Shown here piece after piece: positions 2,476-64,000 of a stretch of DNA of 64,000 bases (positions within the stretch are counted from its first letter, which is position 1; every line of letters starts with the position of its first letter). A model generated the notes under the pieces. That model saw only the letters and a program-made list of their open reading frames with translations. It ran no database searches and was not told the origin of the DNA. Both the position numbers and the translations under genes were made by a program. Origin of the DNA: Verrucomicrobiota bacterium (lineage in GTDB: Bacteria; Verrucomicrobiota; Verrucomicrobiia; Limisphaerales; JAFGQR01); assembly GCA_016935555.1 (NCBI GenBank), contig JAFGQR010000066.1, forward strand, positions 1 through 64,000, read 5' to 3'.

Positions 2476-4908
2476 TCAGGGTGTCGCGGGTTCGTCGGTG
2501 ATTTCGTAGATGGTGCCGTTCAGCAGGATGTGAAGATTGCTGCCGACGGCCAGCCAGGGAAGGGCTTCGGGGTGTTTTCGCAGCAACTCGAAATACGGTT
2601 CGGAACCGAAGGTCAGGCGCACCCGTCTGGATGGCGACGCCTTCTGCACCTCCGCATCGATCCAGCAGGTCCCGTTGAAATAGAAGGCGCGTCCTTGGAT
2701 GTACCTGCTCGGTTGCGCATAAGGCTGGGCGGCCGGATCGGTTCCCACGCCGGCGCCGAAGGCGGCGTTGGGCAGAGTGTTTTGGCCTGACATCGAGGCG
2801 GGCCCCGGGGCGTACGGCTCGCCGGCTTGCATCCGGAGCGGCGTGGCGCCGGAGGCGCGCGCGAGGCTCTGCAGTGCTTCCGCGGCTCCGGAGTCGATCG
2901 CACCGGCGGTCGCCTCGGCCGACTTCAGCTCGTATAGGAACCGGGCGCCGCCGACGGCCAACTGACCTGAGCGGTGGCGGGTGAAGCCGTCGTAGCCGGC
3001 TGCCAATTCGCGGTGCCATTCCGGCGTCGCGGGTCTGAACGTTCGCGAGTGGTCGGCCAGGCCGCGCCGGCCTTCGTCCTCCACAATCAAGTAGGCCGTG
3101 TACGGCGTGACGATGTTATATTGGCGGGCCAGTTGGGAGACTTCATCCTTTAATTCCTGGCTTTCGCCGCGCAGCCGGATTTCGTCGAGCAGGTAGCCGA
3201 CGCGCCGCGTCGCCCACAGGCGGGGGATGAACTCGTGGCCGCGGGCGGTGTCGGGGAACGTCACATCTTCGGCGAAGCGCCGCGATTGGCCGCCGACCTT
3301 GCCTTCGAGGACGATGGCGCCGGCGCCGCTGCCGGTGTAGCGGCCCACCAGGACGAGTTGGCCGCCGTTGAACAGGTCGGGCAGCGGCGAGGGATAAAGC
3401 CGGGTGAGGCGCACGGCGGCGGGGAACGTGAGGGTGGGGCTGGCGAGGACGGGCTCCTTGATTTTGGTGAAGAAGCTGGAGAGTTTCACTTCGAGGTCCT
3501 CTTCCGGCAGCACATACTGGCTGAACGCGCGCGACTCCTCCGTGATCCGATCGAGCAGGTGCGTGTTCACATCCGTCCCGATGCCGAAGCAGAAGATGCG
3601 CGTCAGCGCCTCCATGCGGCGCGTGGCGTTCTTCACGAGGGCGTTCTCGTCGGTCTCGCCCACGGTGGGCCGGCCATCGGTGAGGAAGATGACCACAAAC
3701 GGCCGCGGGCTGTCGCCCGGGCGCAGCGCGAGCGCGTGGCGCAGGGCGTCGTCGATGGCCGTGCCGCCCATCGGTTTGAGGTCCCGGATGAACGCCTGGG
3801 CCTTGGCCCGGGAATCCGGCGACGCCTCGGTCAGTTCCCGGAAGAGCGGTTCGACCTCGGTGGAGAAGCGGACGATCTCGAATCGGTCCTGGCGATTGAG
3901 GTTTTCGACGCAAAAGGCCAGCGCCTTCCTGGCCTGGTCGAGTTTGGCGCCAGCCATCGAACCGGACGTGTCCAGCACAAACGCGACGTCCTTGGGCAGG
4001 ATCTGGTCCTCACGGGCCTGGATTCCCGGCGAGGCCAGCAACATGAAATAGCCGTCCTCAACCCCGGTCTTGTGGGTCAGCAGCGTCAAATCCAGACCGC
4101 CCGCCTCCCGGGTGAAGAACAACTGGAAATCAGTGTCGGGTTTCACGTTGGCCGCCTCGAAACCCACCACCGCCCGGTGCGCACCCTCGCGCCGGAGGTC
4201 GACCGGGTGGCTGGGTGAGTAGAGGGCTTTCAAGGGCCGCTTCGAATCGAGGGTCACGTGGACACTGAGGTTCCTGAGCGGTTTGGCCGAGTATTTCTCC
4301 GTGTTCAAAGGGAACGTGAACTCGACCAGCCCCGCATCGGCCCGCAGCCACTGCGCATACGCCAGCGTGATCCGCTGCCGACTGTGCGGTTCGATCGGGA
4401 AAATACGCACCTTGAACAGGTCCCGTCCGGCGTATTCGAGCAGGGCCGGGTCGCGCAATTTGCGGACGATGTCGTCGTAGAGCCCGCGCGCCTTGTCGGC
4501 GGCGAGCAGTTCGGCCTCGACCGGCTTGCCGTTGATCTCCATGCTGAACTTCTCGAGCTGCGCCCCTCGGGGAACCGGGAACAGGAACGTGCCTTCGAGC
4601 TGCCGCGCGTTGGGATTGTAGAACTCCTGCTCGACGCGTGTCCGGGCAAACTGGTCGTCGATGACGGCGGTGACCCGGGTGAACGCCACCTCCAGCGGCG
4701 CCCACACCGGCGAGGGCGGCGGCCGGAATTGCGGCGGGCGCGGCGGGGGGATGGGCGGCCTGGGGTATGGCGGCGGGTATGGCAGAGGCGGGATGATGCC
4801 CGGCGGCCGCCGCCAGAAGTCCTCGTCGTGGATGAGGATCAGGCCGGCGCCGGGCGCCTGGGGCGCGAGCATCGCCAGGAGCGCTGCGGCCATGAGTGCG
4901 CGTTTCAT
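2476..4908 (-). CDS. VIT and von Willebrand factor A domain protein, exported
   Basis: The protein is 810 residues from the ATG at 4908, which opens a signal peptide (MKRALMAAALLAMLAPQAPG); an upstream TTG at 4938 is less likely. After the signal comes a proline- and arginine-rich linker (about residues 25-70), then a VIT domain (about 75-210) with the typical VEQEFYNP and GTFLFPVP motifs. A vWA domain follows, with an intact metal-ion-dependent adhesion site (D313-T-S315-G-S317 in VLDTSGSMAG). A further beta-rich region ends the protein. VIT/vWA proteins are relatives of the inter-alpha-trypsin inhibitor heavy chains and probably bind ligands outside the inner membrane. No partner gene is adjacent, and the role is unknown. 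Confidence 0.9.
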   Translation of the reverse strand: MKRALMAAALLAMLAPQAPGAGLILIHDEDFWRRPPGIIPPLPYPPPYPRPPIPPPRPPQFRPPPSPVWAPLEVAFTRVTAVIDDQFARTRVEQEFYNPNARQLEGTFLFPVPRGAQLEKFSMEINGKPVEAELLAADKARGLYDDIVRKLRDPALLEYAGRDLFKVRIFPIEPHSRQRITLAYAQWLRADAGLVEFTFPLNTEKYSAKPLRNLSVHVTLDSKRPLKALYSPSHPVDLRREGAHRAVVGFEAANVKPDTDFQLFFTREAGGLDLTLLTHKTGVEDGYFMLLASPGIQAREDQILPKDVAFVLDTSGSMAGAKLDQARKALAFCVENLNRQDRFEIVRFSTEVEPLFRELTEASPDSRAKAQAFIRDLKPMGGTAIDDALRHALALRPGDSPRPFVVIFLTDGRPTVGETDENALVKNATRRMEALTRIFCFGIGTDVNTHLLDRITEESRAFSQYVLPEEDLEVKLSSFFTKIKEPVLASPTLTFPAAVRLTRLYPSPLPDLFNGGQLVLVGRYTGSGAGAIVLEGKVGGQSRRFAEDVTFPDTARGHEFIPRLWATRRVGYLLDEIRLRGESQELKDEVSQLARQYNIVTPYTAYLIVEDEGRRGLADHSRTFRPATPEWHRELAAGYDGFTRHRSGQLAVGGARFLYELKSAEATAGAIDSGAAEALQSLARASGATPLRMQAGEPYAPGPASMSGQNTLPNAAFGAGVGTDPAAQPYAQPSRYIQGRAFYFNGTCWIDAEVQKASPSRRVRLTFGSEPYFELLRKHPEALPWLAVGSNLHILLNGTIYEITDEPATP

Positions 4909-5077
4909 ACGTGGGATTGGACGGAACGTGGGCGCCAATGCTCCCGTGGCGCTGCGTGCGTCGCGGCCGGCGGGTCAAGTCGGTGCGTTGCGACACATCC
5001 TCTGCCGCCGATCATCCCGGGGGCGATCCTACTGTGTTCTCCGTGCCCTCTTGCCCCATAGCCGGTGTTTTTCCGGC

Positions 5078-6436
5078 TCATGGCCTCACGCCGGATGTCA
5101 TCCGGTCGCGGGCTTGCATTGCCGAACTCTTCGGCGGAGGCACTCCGGGATTCCCCGATGCGGGATTGCCGGAGCGGAGCCGGGAGGTTCCGGGGCTTGA
5201 GGGCAACAGGGAGGCCGCGCCCGAGCGGGCGGCTCGCGGGACGAGGGCGCCGGGGACGTGGGTGAAGTCGAAGTCGGTCACGGCTTGGGCGGCAAGTGTT
5301 CCCAGGGTGGACTGGAGGGGCAGCACGTTGCCCTTGCCGTCCGGATGGACGCGATTGGACAGGAACATCCAGAAGGTTTTCGAGAACGGATCAATCCACA
5401 AACACGTGCCGGTGAATCCCGTGTGGCCGTAGGATCCGAGGGCAAACAGGCGGCCCCGAGGCCGGCTGTAACCGGAATCGATGTCCCAGCCAAACCCCCG
5501 GCGCGCGTCCAGGTGAGGAGGGGTTTGCACTCCGGTCATGTGTTGCACGGTCGCCGGCTGGAAGATGCGCCGGCCGTCCAGGGTGCCGCTGTGGAGCAGC
5601 ATTCGGGCATAGCGGGCGAGGTCGGGCGCGGTGCTGAAGAGGCCGGCGTGTCCGGCCACGCCTCCCATGTAGCGGGAGGTGGGATCGTGCACGGTGCCCC
5701 GCAGCCAGTTCGTCCCCACGCGCTGCGTGGGGGCAATCCGCGCGCGCTTCGAGGCGGGGGGTAGGAAGCCGGTGTCGTGCATCTTGAGCGGCCGGCAGAT
5801 CTCGCGTTCGACAAACTGTTCGAGGCCCATGCCGCTGACGCGCCTCACGATGTCGCCGAGCAGGAAGAAATTGATGTCGCTGTAGCGGAACGCGGCGCCG
5901 GGGGCGGTGCGGAGCTGCTCGGCGCACGCCAGGCGGATCGCCGTGTCGTATCCCTCCCATGCCGGCCGCGTGCTGACGTCCGGGCGCAGCCCCGAGGTGT
6001 GGTTCAACAGCTGGCGGACGGTCACCTGCTCTTTGGCGCCGCCGGTGAATTCGGGGATGAACCGGGCCACCGGGTCGTCCAGGCGCAACTGTCCGCGTTC
6101 GACCAGCAGCATGACCGCGGGGGTGCATGCGACGACCTTGGTCAGCGACGCCAGGTCGAAGATGGTGTCGGGGGTCATCGGCTCGGGCTGCGGCTCCAGC
6201 GCGCGGTGTCCATAGGGCCTGGTGTAGATCCGCCCCCGGTGCTCGAGCCACAACACGCCTCCCGGACAGTTGCTGGCCGCGATCGCGTGGTGAATCGCCG
6301 CGTCCATTTCGCTCAACTTGGCGGCGTTGAAAGCCGGTGGCTTGTGCGCACAGCCGCACACGCCAGCCAATGCGGCGAGCACGGCGCCGGCCGGCATCCA
6401 CCGCGCCCCGGCGCACCACGAACGCTGCGTCCTCAT
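5078..6436 (-). CDS. serine hydrolase of the beta-lactamase (class C/esterase) family, probable lipoprotein
   Basis: From the ATG at 6436 the protein is 452 residues. It has a signal peptide ending in a possible lipobox (VCGC, Cys29), then a class C beta-lactamase-type fold: the S97-L-T-K100 catalytic motif in FDLASLTK, HTSGL near residue 146, and Y185-S-D in place of the second YxN motif. Such enzymes are usually esterases or D-amino peptidases rather than true beta-lactamases. The start is decided by GATGCT lying 7 bases upstream, a -10-like hexamer seen before several genes here; the alternative ATG at 6448 falls inside that hexamer. The substrate cannot be inferred. The gene is divergent from the SDR gene. 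Confidence 0.88.
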   Translation of the reverse strand: MRTQRSWCAGARWMPAGAVLAALAGVCGCAHKPPAFNAAKLSEMDAAIHHAIAASNCPGGVLWLEHRGRIYTRPYGHRALEPQPEPMTPDTIFDLASLTKVVACTPAVMLLVERGQLRLDDPVARFIPEFTGGAKEQVTVRQLLNHTSGLRPDVSTRPAWEGYDTAIRLACAEQLRTAPGAAFRYSDINFFLLGDIVRRVSGMGLEQFVEREICRPLKMHDTGFLPPASKRARIAPTQRVGTNWLRGTVHDPTSRYMGGVAGHAGLFSTAPDLARYARMLLHSGTLDGRRIFQPATVQHMTGVQTPPHLDARRGFGWDIDSGYSRPRGRLFALGSYGHTGFTGTCLWIDPFSKTFWMFLSNRVHPDGKGNVLPLQSTLGTLAAQAVTDFDFTHVPGALVPRAARSGAASLLPSSPGTSRLRSGNPASGNPGVPPPKSSAMQARDRMTSGVRP

Positions 6437-58028: not shown

Positions 58029-58901
58029 ATGAACACGACATTGCGGGGATGGCTTCTTGCCGCTGCCCTCGCCTGGGGGGCCGCCATGACCCTCCACCTG
58101 GACGCAGCCGAGCACCTCGACCGCGGCGCGGTGGCGCTGACCCGCAGCGACGGCCGGGTTTACGTGGGCTGGCGGCTGCTGGCGAGCGATCCCCCGGACA
58201 TCGCGTTCGACGTGCACCGCGCCAGCTCGACCAACGCCGGCGCCGACTGGCGCAAACTCAACCGCCAGCCCATCCGCGACGCGTGCAATTTCATCGACAC
58301 CACAGCCCGGGGCGCACGCTGGTTTTATCGGGTCGACACGGCGCAGACCACGCCACGGGGCAGGACACCATCGGCCGCCGTGCCTTCCGTGGAGGCACCG
58401 GACGGATTTGTCCGCCTCAAGCTCCGAGGCACCGATCGCGCGCAGAAGGCGGGTTTGGCCGATTTCGATGGCGACGGCCGGCTCGATTACCTGGTCAAAC
58501 GCCCCGACTTCAACACGGATCCGTACCAGAAGCCCGGCTATTGGAAGAAGAGCGAGGACACCTACAAGCTGGAGGCCTACCGTCACGACGGCGCGTTCCT
58601 GTGGCGTTACGACATGGGCTGGGCGATCGAGGAGGGCATCTGGTATTCGCCGGTCGTCATCCGCGGGACGGGATGGGCGTCCTTGTCGCGGTCACACTGC
58701 GGGAATCTTCAGGCGGCCGCGCCTCACTGCACCGACGCGTTATGGTCGTGGCCGCCGGGATGGGTTGCCTCATGGCCGTCGGGCAGCACCAGGGCCCGCC
58801 CGACGCGCGAGGCCAGCCCGCGGAGCAGATCGCGCTCGACCACGGGCAACGGGCGCGTGGCGAAGGTGGGAATGGTGAAGGTTCTGAGCAGCGAGCCGTA
58901 G
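58029..58901 (+). pseudogene. truncated rhamnogalacturonan lyase (PL11-like), N-terminal fragment
   Basis: The open frame has 290 codons, but only the first about 211 residues look like a PL11 lyase: a signal peptide, then AVALTRSDGRVYVGWRLLASDPP, GLADFDGDGRLDYLVK (a calcium-binding propeller blade) and EEGIWYSPVV. At about 58665, where family members continue with another aspartate-rich blade, the sequence changes abruptly to a Ser/Arg/Pro-rich string that is antisense to the 3' end of the next gene. PL11 enzymes are about 600 residues, so roughly two thirds are missing. A deletion or inversion joining this gene to the minus-strand cluster is the likely cause; an assembly join is the alternative. 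Confidence 0.75.
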
Positions 58902-60322
58902 TGCGCCGGATCCCGCTGCGGGAGAACGAACGGTTTGCCAAAGACGCCGCGGTCGTCGGCGTGCGCGAGGTAGGGGCGGCTGAACAGCGGGTTGCCGCGC
59001 TTGCTGCCGAAGACCAGCCACCGGCTGTTGCTGGACCAGTTGTGCCAGGACTCGCATGCGCCGGAATTGATCTCCAGCTTCCGGGGCGCCGCCGGGCCCG
59101 GGGCGTGCAAATCGATTGCGTAGAGGTCGCTATCGGGGTGGTAGGTGGGCCAGCACCCGTAGGCGCACAGGCAGAAGGTCAACCACCGCCCGTCGGGACT
59201 GATCCGGGGTTGCACCGCGCTGCGGCCAATCGCCCGGGCCGACCAGACCATCTCCGGAGGTCCCCACTGGTCGCGCGCCGCATCATAGGCCACCCGCATC
59301 AAGTCGTATTGGACCTGGCGATAATCGTCCCGGAACATGCCCGCAAAATCCTTGAACCGGCGGGGCGCGCTGCAGAAATACAAGTGCCGGCCGTCGGGCG
59401 ACCAGGCCGGGCAGGTCCGAAGATGGGTGTCGTCGGCCAGCGTGGGAATGCGCCGGACGACATTCGATTCGACGGCGAGAGAGCCCAGCCAGGCGGCGAA
59501 CTCGACAATGTCGCGCATGTCGTTCTTTTGGGAGTGAAGCAGGAGCCGCGGCTGGTTGAAGGAAGCGGCCAGCAGATGCCCGCCCGGATGCCAGGCGCAG
59601 AATCCGACCGTGCCCTCCAGTTTTGTCGTTTGGCCGTCGCGGACGAGGAGCAGGCTGTTGCCATGCTGGGCGCTGCGGATGTCCACGGAAAACCGGCTGG
59701 CGTCGGGGCTGCCCAATGAATGGCAATGACAACACTCCCGCTCCAGCAGCGGCCGCTCGTCGAAGCGATCCAGGCGCCGCTCGTAGAGTCCCATGGCGCT
59801 CCACGAATTATGGACCGGGTAGATCTTGCGATACACCAGGAACGGATCGATGGGTTCGGAGGCGACGGTCTGGGTCACCGCTCGGAACCGCCGCCAACCG
59901 CCCTTGTCCGCCTCGGCATACACGTCGATCTCCACGATGCCGCCCCGGTTCATTTGCAGCAGCGTCCGCCATGAGGACTCCGGAATGACCACGGAAGCCC
60001 CCCGGGGCCGGATCCGGATGGGCGCACCCTTGGCCCCGCGCAGGACGACCCCGTAGCGGCCAGCCTCCTCGAGAATCGTGAAATTCAACGGCGCGATGTT
60101 CGGGGGAATGACCACCCCGCTGTAATCCGGGTCGAGCCGCGGCGGGCGGTCGACGGGGGTCGCGCGCCCCATCGCCTCGGGAGAATCGCCCGGCCTGCAC
60201 GCCGGGCCGGCGGCCGCCAGGACGGCCAACAGCACGCCGGCCAGTGCGCGCGGCCCATGGCGATTCAAGGCCGGGCCCGCCGGCACGCGGCCGGACACGG
60301 ATTGCGGGGTGAAGGAATTCAT
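58724..60322 (-). CDS. PD40/TolB-like beta-propeller protein with CxxCH motif
   Basis: A 532-residue exported protein; the signal region (ALAGVLLAVLAAAGPAC) ends at Cys42, a weak lipobox. A beta-rich domain (about 65-160) comes first. C197-C-H-C200-H201 (ECCHCHS) then supplies a CxxCH sequence able to take heme c, and a propeller with WD40-like PD repeats follows (TCPAWSPDGRHLYFCSAP, QPRISPDGRWLTFCL). I recall similar proteins beside DUF6057 genes in Bacteroidetes. The start ATG is one base after the DUF6057 stop (TGACATG). Function unknown; a periplasmic, possibly redox-active partner of the DUF6057 membrane protein is inferred. Confidence 0.82.
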   Translation of the reverse strand: MNSFTPQSVSGRVPAGPALNRHGPRALAGVLLAVLAAAGPACRPGDSPEAMGRATPVDRPPRLDPDYSGVVIPPNIAPLNFTILEEAGRYGVVLRGAKGAPIRIRPRGASVVIPESSWRTLLQMNRGGIVEIDVYAEADKGGWRRFRAVTQTVASEPIDPFLVYRKIYPVHNSWSAMGLYERRLDRFDERPLLERECCHCHSLGSPDASRFSVDIRSAQHGNSLLLVRDGQTTKLEGTVGFCAWHPGGHLLAASFNQPRLLLHSQKNDMRDIVEFAAWLGSLAVESNVVRRIPTLADDTHLRTCPAWSPDGRHLYFCSAPRRFKDFAGMFRDDYRQVQYDLMRVAYDAARDQWGPPEMVWSARAIGRSAVQPRISPDGRWLTFCLCAYGCWPTYHPDSDLYAIDLHAPGPAAPRKLEINSGACESWHNWSSNSRWLVFGSKRGNPLFSRPYLAHADDRGVFGKPFVLPQRDPAHYGSLLRTFTIPTFATRPLPVVERDLLRGLASRVGRALVLPDGHEATHPGGHDHNASVQ

Positions 60323-60323
60323 G

Positions 60324-62219
60324 TCAACGCAACGAAAAGAAATAATAATAATAGGTGTGGGCGAATCGTTTGGGCAGCAGATCCAGGGGGGCCTGCGGAT
60401 GCCATCCTGCAGCCAGCGCTGCGGTTTGGAACATCCGATAACGAGCCAGCGCCGCCGCGCTGGGCGGGGGCCTGAACTGCCCGGGGTCGATCCCGGCGCG
60501 CTCGGCAGCCAGCACTGCCGCCTCGTCGTATCGCGGCGGCAGGTTGGTCAGCCCCATGGTGTCCAGCCGGCGGAAGTGCCTGGCCAATCCCTGGAGATCC
60601 CTTGCCAGCATGCGGTGCGCGATCAGATACTCCGCCGCCATCCGGTTGTCCGGCGACGCCTCGAGCAGGCGGAGCAGCAGGGGCTCCGCAGGCATGGGAA
60701 GCAGGTCGTCGGCAACGGGATTCTGTTGCCGCCAGCGCGCGGCTTCTTCATCCCGGACCCAGGCGGGATCACGTTCGAGGCGTCGCAGGCAGTCGGCGGC
60801 CCACGCCGCCTGGAACGGGGTGCGCCTGAGGGCGCGCAGATGGATTCTGGCGGTGCCGATATTCTCCAAGGCCAGGTGGATGAGGACCAGCCGCCTGAGG
60901 AGAAACGGCTGTTCGCCATAGAAGGCGATGGCCTCGGTGGCGTGATGCAACGCGAGGTTCAAACTCCCCAGGTCAAGATACAGGTCAATCCCATGCCAAT
61001 GCGCCGCCGGATCGCCCAGGGGCAAGAGCAGGTGCTCGGGCGTTTGCGTCAGGGGCAACTCATGGCCCAACCGCCCCAGATGATACCACGCCCGGTTGAC
61101 GGCGCATCGCACATAGGAATGGTCCGCATTGTTCCGGGCCGCCGCCAGCACATCCGGCCACTGCCGCCGGCTGGCGTGGTAATCCACCTCAAGCAACGCC
61201 TTCAACCGCTGGTCGGAAAAACCGGCGACCACCGCCCCCATCGCCCCCAGCACCGCCGCCAGTCTCACCATCCCGGGCCACCCACCCCCGCCCGCCGGGG
61301 CGGCCGTTCTGCCGGACACGGTCTGCCCGGGGGGCTTGAGCCGGCGCCGCAGAACGATGGCGACGCCCGCCACCGGCAGGAGAAGATACAGCCCGTAAAG
61401 GAGGACCTTCGCTTGAGACGGGAGCCCGTCGAGATTGCCGGGCACGGACCCTATCGTTCCCCAGATCCCGTCCACGCCCGGCCCGAAGGACATGCGGTCG
61501 GCCGCCAGCGGCACGGCCACCGCCAGCGGCGCCAGCAGGCACGCCAGCTTCCAGCGGCCCCGATGGAGTTCCACCGCCGCCGCCAACGCCACGAAGACCG
61601 TCAGAGCGCTGCCGGCGACGGCGTAAAGCAGGCCCCCCAGCACCAGGATGACGAGAGCCGACCACGCGGGAGGCTGCTGAAAGCCGCGTCTCTTCCTGGC
61701 GACGATGTTGCCGGCGTGCGCATACAGCAGCGCCATGCCCAGGGCGGCCAGCAGCGCGTTTGCCGGCAGCAGGCAACAGGTATAGCTGGCGTGCAACGCG
61801 AGCAGCGCCAGGGGCGGCACCCAGCGGAGCCAGCGCCACCGCACCGCGTCCAAGACGCGCAGGTATGCCTCCGTGCCCGCCGCCAGGAGCCACGCCTGCA
61901 CCGCGAGCACCAGCGCCCCGAGCCAGGCTTGCTGGAATCCCTGCGCCAGGAGCGCCGACACGTACCGTGCGGCGCCGCCCGGCTGCCGCAGCAGTTCCCG
62001 GCAGAAGTCCCCTCCCCATTGGAAGGTGGGGAAGAATTGGATCACACCGCCGCCGTGATGCATCAGCGGAGGGTTGACCTGCCACACCAGCACCCCCAGG
62101 TAACACGCCCATCCTGCGGCGTCTGCCAGCCATGAGCGCCGGGACCAGCCCCCCCTGGCAGGCAACGGCGGCTTTCGCAAGGTTGCGGTTCCGGTCCTGG
62201 CTGGGGAGGGATTGGACAT
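60324..62219 (-). CDS. DUF6057 family membrane protein
   Basis: A 631-residue protein with about ten membrane helices in the first 360 residues, then a helical, TPR-like soluble half (LNLALHHATEAIAFYGEQPF, LIHLALENIGTARIHL) ending in the conserved FAHTYYYYFFSLR. The N-terminal LMHHGGGVIQFFPTFQWGGDF and this ending are what I recognise as DUF6057, known from Bacteroidetes and related phyla. No biochemical role is known to me. It is preceded by the RACo-like gene (25 bases) and coupled to the CxxCH propeller gene (one base). The topology resembles glycosyltransferase-like or PelG-like envelope proteins, but no catalytic motif supports that. Confidence 0.8.
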   Translation of the reverse strand: MSNPSPARTGTATLRKPPLPARGGWSRRSWLADAAGWACYLGVLVWQVNPPLMHHGGGVIQFFPTFQWGGDFCRELLRQPGGAARYVSALLAQGFQQAWLGALVLAVQAWLLAAGTEAYLRVLDAVRWRWLRWVPPLALLALHASYTCCLLPANALLAALGMALLYAHAGNIVARKRRGFQQPPAWSALVILVLGGLLYAVAGSALTVFVALAAAVELHRGRWKLACLLAPLAVAVPLAADRMSFGPGVDGIWGTIGSVPGNLDGLPSQAKVLLYGLYLLLPVAGVAIVLRRRLKPPGQTVSGRTAAPAGGGGWPGMVRLAAVLGAMGAVVAGFSDQRLKALLEVDYHASRRQWPDVLAAARNNADHSYVRCAVNRAWYHLGRLGHELPLTQTPEHLLLPLGDPAAHWHGIDLYLDLGSLNLALHHATEAIAFYGEQPFLLRRLVLIHLALENIGTARIHLRALRRTPFQAAWAADCLRRLERDPAWVRDEEAARWRQQNPVADDLLPMPAEPLLLRLLEASPDNRMAAEYLIAHRMLARDLQGLARHFRRLDTMGLTNLPPRYDEAAVLAAERAGIDPGQFRPPPSAAALARYRMFQTAALAAGWHPQAPLDLLPKRFAHTYYYYFFSLR

Positions 62220-62244
62220 GGCCTGCGGGAGGTCCGCCCGATGC

Positions 62245-63876
62245 TCAGGCGTTGGGGGCGGAGGGCTGGGGGAACGTCAATTCCTCGACGAAGACGTCCT
62301 GGAAGCGGGGGTGTTCTCTGAGCGACACGTGGGTGATGAGGCGCCGGAGATCGTCGTAGGCGCCTTGTGTTTCCGGGAGATTGAAGAGGGCCAGCTTGGC
62401 CCCCAGCAGCGCCGTGTTGCCGGCCGCCACCACCCGCTCGGAGCTGAACGGCAGCAGCCCAATCCGCGCGGCACTCTGGAGGTTGATGTAATTCCCAAAG
62501 GCGCCCGCCAGGTAAATCCGGCGGAGCTCGTCCAGCGGGGCGCCATAGAGTTCCATGAGAATCCGGATGCCGGCCGCGATGGCGCCCTTGGCCAACTGGA
62601 GTTCGCGGATGTCGGCCTGGGTGATCTCGACGGGCGGGCACAACGGCATGCGCTTGCCGTCGGCGAGCCGGCCGGAAGGGTGTATCCGGCGCAGGTCGAG
62701 TCCGCCGGCGACGGCATCCACCAGCCCGCTGCCGCAGATGCCGCGCGGTGCGCTCCGGCCGAGGACGCCGCACTGGAACTGGCCGTCTTTGACGCTGACC
62801 TCGGAGATGGCGCCCGTGGCCGCCCGCATGCCCGAGGCGATCCGGGCGCCCTCGAAGGCCGGGCCTGCGGCGGTCGAACTGCACAGCAGGCGATCGCGGT
62901 TGCCGACGACAATTTCGCCGTTGGTGCCCAGATCGACCAGCGCGACCAGCTCGGGGCTCTCGTGAAGCCGGGTGGCCAGGATGCCCCCCAGAACGTCGCT
63001 CCCCACAAAGCCGCCCAGACAGGGCAGAAAATGGGCGGTCGCCCCGTCCGCCGGTCCGCGCGGCGGGTGAGCCCCGGGAACGGGCGGATCCGGTGGGGAG
63101 GGAATCGCGTCGAACGCCAGAGGGCGCGAGGGCTGAGCCGCGGGCGGCTCGCGCGTCGACGGCGCCGGTGGGAGCACTCGGAAGTGTTTGGGGCCGTCGT
63201 CGGTGGGGGTGAACGGGTGGTGTGCCAGGGGGCTAACGGGAACGCCGCAGAAGAGGTGGTGCATGGCGGTGTTGCCCACCAACACCATGTCGGTGAGATC
63301 GCCGACGGTGTGACCGGTCGTGCGCAGCAGTTCGCCCACCAGCCCGCCGATCTGTTCGCGGATCAGGGTCTGCAATTGCTGCTGGCCGTTGTCGGCAAGC
63401 GCGAAGTCGATGCGGCTCATGAGGTCGGCGCCGTGGCGGGCCTGGGCATTGAGCGCGGTGCGCACTCCCAGCACCCGGCCGGTGCGAAGATCCAGGAGTT
63501 GTGCCACGAGCGTTGTCGTGCCGAGGTCCACCGCCACTCCGTAGCCCGGGCGCGGGTGAAATTCAAACGCCGAGTCGTCCGAGAGAATCGGGGCGTCCCA
63601 CTGGGCGAGTTCGATCTGGAGATCAGTGAGGGCGCGCATCCGGCAGGCCAGGCGCCAGCCCTCGGCCAGCTCGGCGGCGGATAGCAGGCGCTGGTCGTCG
63701 GGGGTCGGCGGCGCGCTGCCGGCAAGCACCTTTACGCGGCAGCCTTTGCATCGGCCGCGGCCGCCGCAGGGGAATTCGACGCCCTGCTCGAACAGGACGT
63801 TTTGGAGGGGCGTGCCCTGTTCGACGGTCAGGGTTGTGCCCAGAGGCAGCAACTCGAGGCGCACGGAGGGGGGCAT
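62245..63876 (-). CDS. ASKHA-domain corrinoid activation protein (RACo-like) with [2Fe-2S] ferredoxin domain
   Basis: A 543-residue protein. An N-terminal ferredoxin domain binds [2Fe-2S] through C37, C43, C46 and C78 (FPCGGRGRCKGCRVKV). An ASKHA (actin-like ATPase) region follows from about residue 115, with GVAVDLGTTTLVAQLLDL, VALVDLGTNGEIVVGN, GAISEVSVKDG and LAGAFGNYINLQSA. This is the layout of RACo/RamA-type proteins, which reduce Co(II) corrinoids back to Co(I) for methyltransferases. A Pro-rich insert lies near residues 230-270. No corrinoid protein or methyltransferase is in the window, so the partner is unknown. The ATG at 63876 is five bases after the upstream stop. Confidence 0.88.
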   Translation of the reverse strand: MPPSVRLELLPLGTTLTVEQGTPLQNVLFEQGVEFPCGGRGRCKGCRVKVLAGSAPPTPDDQRLLSAAELAEGWRLACRMRALTDLQIELAQWDAPILSDDSAFEFHPRPGYGVAVDLGTTTLVAQLLDLRTGRVLGVRTALNAQARHGADLMSRIDFALADNGQQQLQTLIREQIGGLVGELLRTTGHTVGDLTDMVLVGNTAMHHLFCGVPVSPLAHHPFTPTDDGPKHFRVLPPAPSTREPPAAQPSRPLAFDAIPSPPDPPVPGAHPPRGPADGATAHFLPCLGGFVGSDVLGGILATRLHESPELVALVDLGTNGEIVVGNRDRLLCSSTAAGPAFEGARIASGMRAATGAISEVSVKDGQFQCGVLGRSAPRGICGSGLVDAVAGGLDLRRIHPSGRLADGKRMPLCPPVEITQADIRELQLAKGAIAAGIRILMELYGAPLDELRRIYLAGAFGNYINLQSAARIGLLPFSSERVVAAGNTALLGAKLALFNLPETQGAYDDLRRLITHVSLREHPRFQDVFVEELTFPQPSAPNA

Positions 63877-63881
63877 GAGCC

Positions 63882-64000
63882 TCAGAGGAGATTGGCGACC
63901 CGGCGGAAATGGTAGCCGAGGATCGCAAGCTCGATCGCACGGGGGAACTGGCGGGGCCGCCGCAGCAGGGTGCTCCAGAAGAACCGCCAGTAGGCGCATC
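63882..64000 (-). CDS. 3' end of a gene, possibly a B12-binding radical SAM protein (DUF4070 type)
   Basis: Only the last 38 codons and the TGA (63884-63882) are in the window; the gene continues past the right edge. The visible end contains YWRFFWSTLLRRPRQF and ELAILGYHFRRVANLL, which resembles the C-terminus of cobalamin-binding radical SAM proteins with a DUF4070 tail. The stop is five bases before the RACo-like start, so they are co-transcribed. A corrinoid-dependent enzyme next to a corrinoid activator would make sense, but the identification rests on a short tail. Confidence 0.4.
   Translation of the reverse strand, partial: CAYWRFFWSTLLRRPRQFPRAIELAILGYHFRRVANLL

Follow-up and report, generated by a model that had tools for sequence, protein, structure and literature searches.

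A DUF6057 membrane protein and an exported CxxCH beta-propeller form a conserved gene pair and a candidate membrane-anchored heme complex

Among four closely spaced minus-strand genes at the end of the 64,000-nucleotide stretch of verrucomicrobial DNA analyzed here (the window), two were found to belong to a conserved pair: a gene for a DUF6057 membrane protein and a gene for an exported beta-propeller carrying a single CxxCH motif (Table 1). That DUF6057 and the propeller are paired is near certain. For the pair as a whole, the best explanation is an obligate, translationally coupled, membrane-anchored c-type heme propeller complex, a reading whose chances we put at about even. Co-occurrence, adjacency, coupling, motif conservation and predicted topology were computed for the two families and are presented below.

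The first-pass annotation of this DNA had described four genes separated by 5, 25 and 1 bases, and both the genes and their spacings were recovered from the sequence. On the minus strand the radical SAM and RACo genes are joined by TGA-GGCTC-ATG, RACo and DUF6057 by TGA, 25 nt and ATG, and DUF6057 and the propeller by TGA-C-ATG. What had been listed as a possible radical SAM end is part of a complete gene (63882-65354, 490 aa) encoding B12-binding, Radical_SAM and DUF4070 domains; since the contig continues to 70705, this gene was hidden by the window edge and not by a gap in the data. The RACo start was moved from 63999 to 63876, the most likely position. A rhamnogalacturonan lyase is represented on the plus strand, at positions 58029-58901, by its initial part alone (an RGI_lyase domain and 73 of the 490 positions of RGL11_C). 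This piece meets the propeller gene tail to tail, with an overlap, and has the appearance of a remnant left by truncation of the gene.

Table 1. Features of the four-gene locus, in window coordinates.
Feature	Position	Strand	Basis or remark
PD40/TolB-like beta-propeller with one CxxCH, exported, 532 aa	58724..60322	-	PD40 Pfam E 2e-11
CxxCH codons (CCHCH, residues 197-201), candidate covalent heme c site	59720..59734	-	invariant in homologues
DUF6057 inner-membrane protein, 631 aa	60324..62219	-	PF19529 E 3e-70
DUF6057 predicted nine-helix membrane part, residues 27-334	61218..62141	-	model helices and positive-inside profile
DUF6057 predicted periplasmic TPR-type tail, residues 335-631	60327..61217	-	model helical repeats; Foldseek; Pfam TPR
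RACo-like ASKHA activator, N-terminal [2Fe-2S] domain	62245..63876	-	Fer2, Raco_middle, RACo_C_ter
B12-binding radical SAM gene, 3' end in window	63882..64000	-	runs to 65354 on contig

Within 58 genomes of the same order (the relatives), DUF6057 scored above its cut-off in eight, and the propeller was present in the same eight (Fisher p 5e-9); beyond these it was seen only as a single 126-residue fragment, in G051. A set of 21 genomes picked for having DUF6057 was used to count adjacency: a propeller lay within 2 kb of 37 of the 42 DUF6057 matches, and 35 of the 38 propellers had a DUF6057 equally near, with about one DUF6057 per propeller and DUF6057 usually the first gene, the propeller the second. 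Among 77 adjacent pairs, 62 are spaced by 30 nt or less and 40 show an ATGA overlap. The two families also gave correlated mirror trees (r 0.87, with 0 of 999 permutations as high, the species tree not being factored in). Co-occurrence, adjacency and mirror-tree analysis all agree with the partnership that had been proposed from the shared junction. Unlinked pair genes were found in G015, in G119 and twice in G350; as G015 has both genes on different contigs, the link between DUF6057 and the propeller exceeds mere adjacency.

Beyond the order, a single scan with the propeller profile as query covered 84,980 species genomes, and the best 80 matches were kept and 77 loci examined; being propeller-driven and limited to the best 80 matches, it is a biased sample. 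Going by record titles, Planctomycetota (50) and Verrucomicrobiota/Lentisphaerota (8) head the matches listed, with fewer from Sumerlaeota, Armatimonadota, Acidobacteriota, Ignavibacteria, Bacteroidota, Calditrichota, KSB1, Gemmatimonadota and Deltaproteobacteria, so that among these matches the pair is present across about ten bacterial phyla. DUF6057 is patchily distributed: of 289 genomes of the source phylum 8 scored above the cut-off, and of 297 from the phylum of a Bacteroidetes locus (L083) 3 did so. Several pairs may share a genome, a second one lying on contig C152 of the genome studied here and seven being held by the planctomycetotal genome G347. Tandem arrays, with up to three pairs and an extra DUF6057 in a row, were observed at L056 (G347:C1:1972449-1984765), L033, L043 and L059, and array-mates can diverge about as much as pairs taken from separate genomes. 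Four loci of genus g114 (L104-L106, L109) carry a divergent DUF6057 without an adjoining CxxCH propeller. At L104 the DUF6057 is followed by a 303-aa protein with weak matches to PQQ/Mala_s_1-type propellers, and in G119, the sole g114 genome searched, a CxxCH propeller is located on another contig. At three verrucomicrobial loci a large protein is encoded directly upstream of DUF6057 (L004:6766-8916, L020:6490-8850, L026:3780-5858); those of L004 and L020 are TPR-rich, the L026 protein resembles that of L020, and the L004 protein has an SGNH-hydrolase-like N-terminus, as read from its sequence.

An envelope location is predicted for both proteins, in line with the first-pass annotation. The AlphaFold2 model of the propeller (pLDDT 88.6) includes an N-terminal membrane helix, and its homologues have N-terminal hydrophobic stretches, with a loose lipobox match in 18 of 65. 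TolB was the best Foldseek match, at a low TM-score (0.40-0.42), and the TolB model TIGR02800 gave 15.8 bits against a cut-off of 343. The conservation of the CxxCH, on which the first-pass annotation had let its proposal depend, is complete: C197, C200 and H201 are invariant in 65 of 65 homologues, which had not been recruited by that motif, and the CxxCH is therefore not a product of chance. All 65 thus show the signature of a c-type cytochrome, a CxxCH in an exported protein. No distal heme ligand is fixed, the near-invariant histidines H245 (63/65) and H263 (59/65) being no more than candidates. A profile search returned no heme-propeller enzyme, its top PDB matches being of the PD40/TolB type, and PDB sequence searches with the propeller and DUF6057 singly gave spurious matches only (viral capsids, designed repeat proteins). 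Homology to hydrazine synthase was considered and rejected, as this enzyme is absent from the profile search at E 10 and the domain order of the enzyme and its homologues differs; Foldseek listed a hydrazine synthase chain, but only as a weak match at rank 16. At C188 of this genome ResB scores above cut-off and adjoins a CcsA-like gene, which makes covalent attachment of heme to the propeller feasible. That the propeller carries heme is, in our judgment, likely.

For DUF6057, the Pfam family PF19529 was matched at 238 bits (cut-off 29.8) over positions 38-567 of 569. The AlphaFold2 model (pLDDT 88.7) and a positive-inside profile over 56 sequences predict a protein with its N-terminus inside, nine helices and a C-terminal TPR-type domain outside; the loop at residues 295-315 holds 8.6 K+R on average across these 56 sequences. 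Foldseek returned only TPR-type proteins from the PDB, with no match below E 0.001 in PDB or BFVD, and found no solved structure resembling the membrane part; weak Pfam TPR matches occur in family members. No histidine is conserved in the membrane helices, leaving no evident electron path. A sister family joins a CxxCH propeller and C-terminal TPR repeats in one chain and sometimes adjoins the pair (L110:6931-9273, L038:9634-11937, L042:522-2912 and 3254-5542); this genome encodes a member at C114. Five of the six listed members have a complete CxxCH. This fusion suggests that the TPR tail of DUF6057 contacts the propeller, and we regard docking of the propeller by the tail as somewhat more probable than otherwise.

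The commonest same-strand neighbour of the pair, at 23 loci, is an FkbO/Hyg5-RidA-like gene (A4), located directly downstream of it at 12 loci and directly upstream at three. Among the relatives, a full-length copy is present in 6 of the 8 DUF6057 genomes and 11 of the 50 others (p 0.006, kinship ignored); in the genome studied here it lies on contig C157, apart from the pair. Its product aligns with FkbO/Hyg5 chorismatases over the RidA-like region and is a distant relative of them, scoring 44-62 bits against a cut-off of 325. At L097 the gene stands between the pair and ResB/CcsA-type genes, and a CcsA-like gene is near the pair at L035. As a general part of a cytochrome maturation operon the FkbO-like gene was rejected, since ResB/CcsA-type genes are near in these two loci only and the relatives' loci examined around it are without them.

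The RACo gene itself is well supported, with Fer2, Raco_middle and RACo_C_ter (E 2.5e-67) all above cut-off; against AcsV it scores 297 bits, short of the cut-off of 800. The first-pass annotation had proposed a four-gene system that would fall if the pair were widespread without RACo, and this is what was found: the pair occurs widely without it, including on C152 of the same genome, and at no other locus examined, among the relatives or the 77 loci listed, do RACo or the radical SAM gene adjoin the pair. The annotation had further remarked on the lack of a known RACo target in the window. Stand-alone B12-binding proteins are encoded elsewhere in this genome, that at C104 being a candidate target, so the absence from the window means little. 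PF14574 is present in 19 of the 58 relatives, where RACo lies apart from DUF6057. Among the genes next to it in these genomes are one for a corrinoid protein (L183, which matches that of L016 at 310 bits) and methyltransferase-like genes (L180, L185), the latter named by reading of their sequences. The adjacency of RACo and the radical SAM gene recurs once, in G054 (L192), with DUF6057 on another contig. At L187 and L189, in two relatives, the RACo-like gene adjoins what reads as a ferrochelatase gene. One relative has a same-strand gene for a corrinoid protein immediately upstream of DUF6057 (L016:2886-3545); this could be chance or a weak leftover link to cobalamin. As a regular neighbour of the pair the corrinoid protein was rejected, being found only at L016/L034 (one genome) and L058. 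Among the 58 relatives RACo co-occurs with the FkbO-like gene (p 1e-5, counts ignoring kinship), and a common anaerobic lifestyle or clade could lie behind this and its co-occurrence with DUF6057. On gene order and distribution, RACo is judged to be probably a neighbour outside the conserved pair, and the B12 radical SAM gene to be probably the partner of RACo and not of the pair.

Taken as a complex, the pair would work as follows. DUF6057 would be an inner-membrane protein of nine helices with a periplasmic TPR-type tail, and the propeller would be exported and tethered by its N-terminal helix or by a lipid. One heme c would most likely be covalently bound at the propeller CxxCH, attached by ResB/CcsA (System II). 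Through its TPR tail, DUF6057 would dock the heme propeller on the periplasmic side of the inner membrane, and there the complex might perform a single heme-dependent step, either a redox reaction or the binding of a ligand. RACo and the B12 radical SAM protein would belong together in another unit, serving to activate a corrinoid protein whose gene lies elsewhere. Heme attachment, docking and the redox role are what we infer from the computed features. Counting against this reading are the missing fixed distal ligand, the membrane helices of DUF6057 with neither a conserved histidine nor a solved structural relative, the unlinked pairs, and the other propeller-like gene beside DUF6057 in genus g114. 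A bolder and, in our view, unlikely proposal is that of an unrecognized class of heme-propeller redox complex tethered to the membrane, which would occur in about ten phyla with up to seven pairs per genome and work with the chorismatase-like enzyme; given such a partnership, it may consume or produce an aromatic small molecule derived from chorismate.

Other explanations share part of this evidence. DUF6057 could be a dedicated maturation chaperone of the CcmI/NrfG kind, presenting the apo-propeller for heme attachment, with the propeller then acting alone; it differs from the preferred complex in whether DUF6057 stays bound. A membrane anchor with a periplasmic TPR domain is the plan of CcmI, whose TPR domain has been proposed to bind the apocytochrome (PMC3601427). 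The ratio of about one DUF6057 per propeller is what a dedicated chaperone predicts, and ResB and CcsA-like genes adjoin the module at L097, a CcsA-like gene being near at L035. These are, however, the only two loci with cytochrome maturation genes nearby, and the sister family, in which TPR repeats and propeller share one chain, points to a contact that lasts. CcmI also has far fewer membrane helices than the nine of DUF6057, and we consider the chaperone unlikely. A slightly less likely possibility is that the CxxCH holds no heme and serves as a structural metal or disulfide site in a TolB-like scaffold or ligand-binding lipoprotein anchored by DUF6057. TolB propellers are the best structural matches, no canonical cytochrome domain was recognized in the propeller and no distal ligand is clear; however, the motif is complete in every one of the exported proteins and in nearly all listed members of the sister family, and cytochrome maturation genes are present in the genome and, in places, beside the module.

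DUF6057 might instead be a membrane glycosyltransferase of the GT-C type that ends in a TPR tail, on the TMTC/TMEM260 plan, and the propeller its acceptor or accessory. The helix count, the helical first periplasmic loop and the TPR tail together resemble a GT-C plus TPR plan, and glycoside hydrolases are nearby in some loci. No acidic residue is conserved in the first periplasmic loop (residues 49-81) over the 56 sequences, though, and GT-C families were connected to DUF6057 by neither Foldseek nor Pfam, even with matches up to E 10 considered, making this reading very improbable. Joint action of RACo and the B12 radical SAM protein with DUF6057 and the propeller is the least probable of all. 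It draws on the tight spacing in the window, on the co-occurrence of RACo with DUF6057 in the relatives (7/8 versus 12/50, p 0.001, counts ignoring kinship) and on the corrinoid gene preceding DUF6057 at L016. Against it, neither gene adjoins the pair at any other locus examined. Among the other DUF6057 genomes of this order, those with a RACo gene all carry it away from the pair, and RACo is missing from G004, where the pair is present. The preferred reading remains the membrane-anchored heme propeller complex formed by the pair.

With a pair kept in about ten phyla, sometimes as tandem arrays, DUF6057 gains a defined partner, a topology and a heme site that lends itself to testing. Should the pair prove to be a heme complex, Planctomycetota and Verrucomicrobiota, in which little is known of envelope biochemistry, would gain a periplasmic redox module. 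The locus also counsels caution on operons drawn from spacing alone, as two B12-related genes look included and probably are not. The first-pass annotation knew of no function for either protein; none is described for the pair in the literature searched, consisting mostly of papers available without subscription, and DUF6057/PF19529 is not mentioned there. PADLOC matched neither the propeller nor DUF6057 to an anti-phage defence system.

The activator gene of the window shares the full domain set of RACo. Like TolB of the Tol-Pal system and other PD40 propellers, the propeller is an exported PD40 beta-propeller; in contrast to TolB it has a CxxCH and a different N-terminal domain, and its partner is DUF6057 and not Pal or TolA. 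Hydrazine synthase and cytochrome cd1 are periplasmic enzymes that likewise bring together a beta-propeller and c-type heme, the heme being putative in our case. No sequence relation to solved heme-propeller enzymes was found, and a polytopic partner is obligatory here. The heme domain of hydrazine synthase alpha comes after its propeller (PMC12758564), whereas here one CxxCH is located at the start of the propeller. For the proposed contact between DUF6057 and the propeller, the closest analogue is provided by the TPR proteins CcmI and NrfG, which are membrane-linked, periplasmic and proposed to bind a CxxCH protein. The TPR_CcmH_CycH model matched one of 56 DUF6057 members at E 0.069, which is not beyond noise, and DUF6057 differs from CcmI and NrfG in possessing a nine-helix membrane part.
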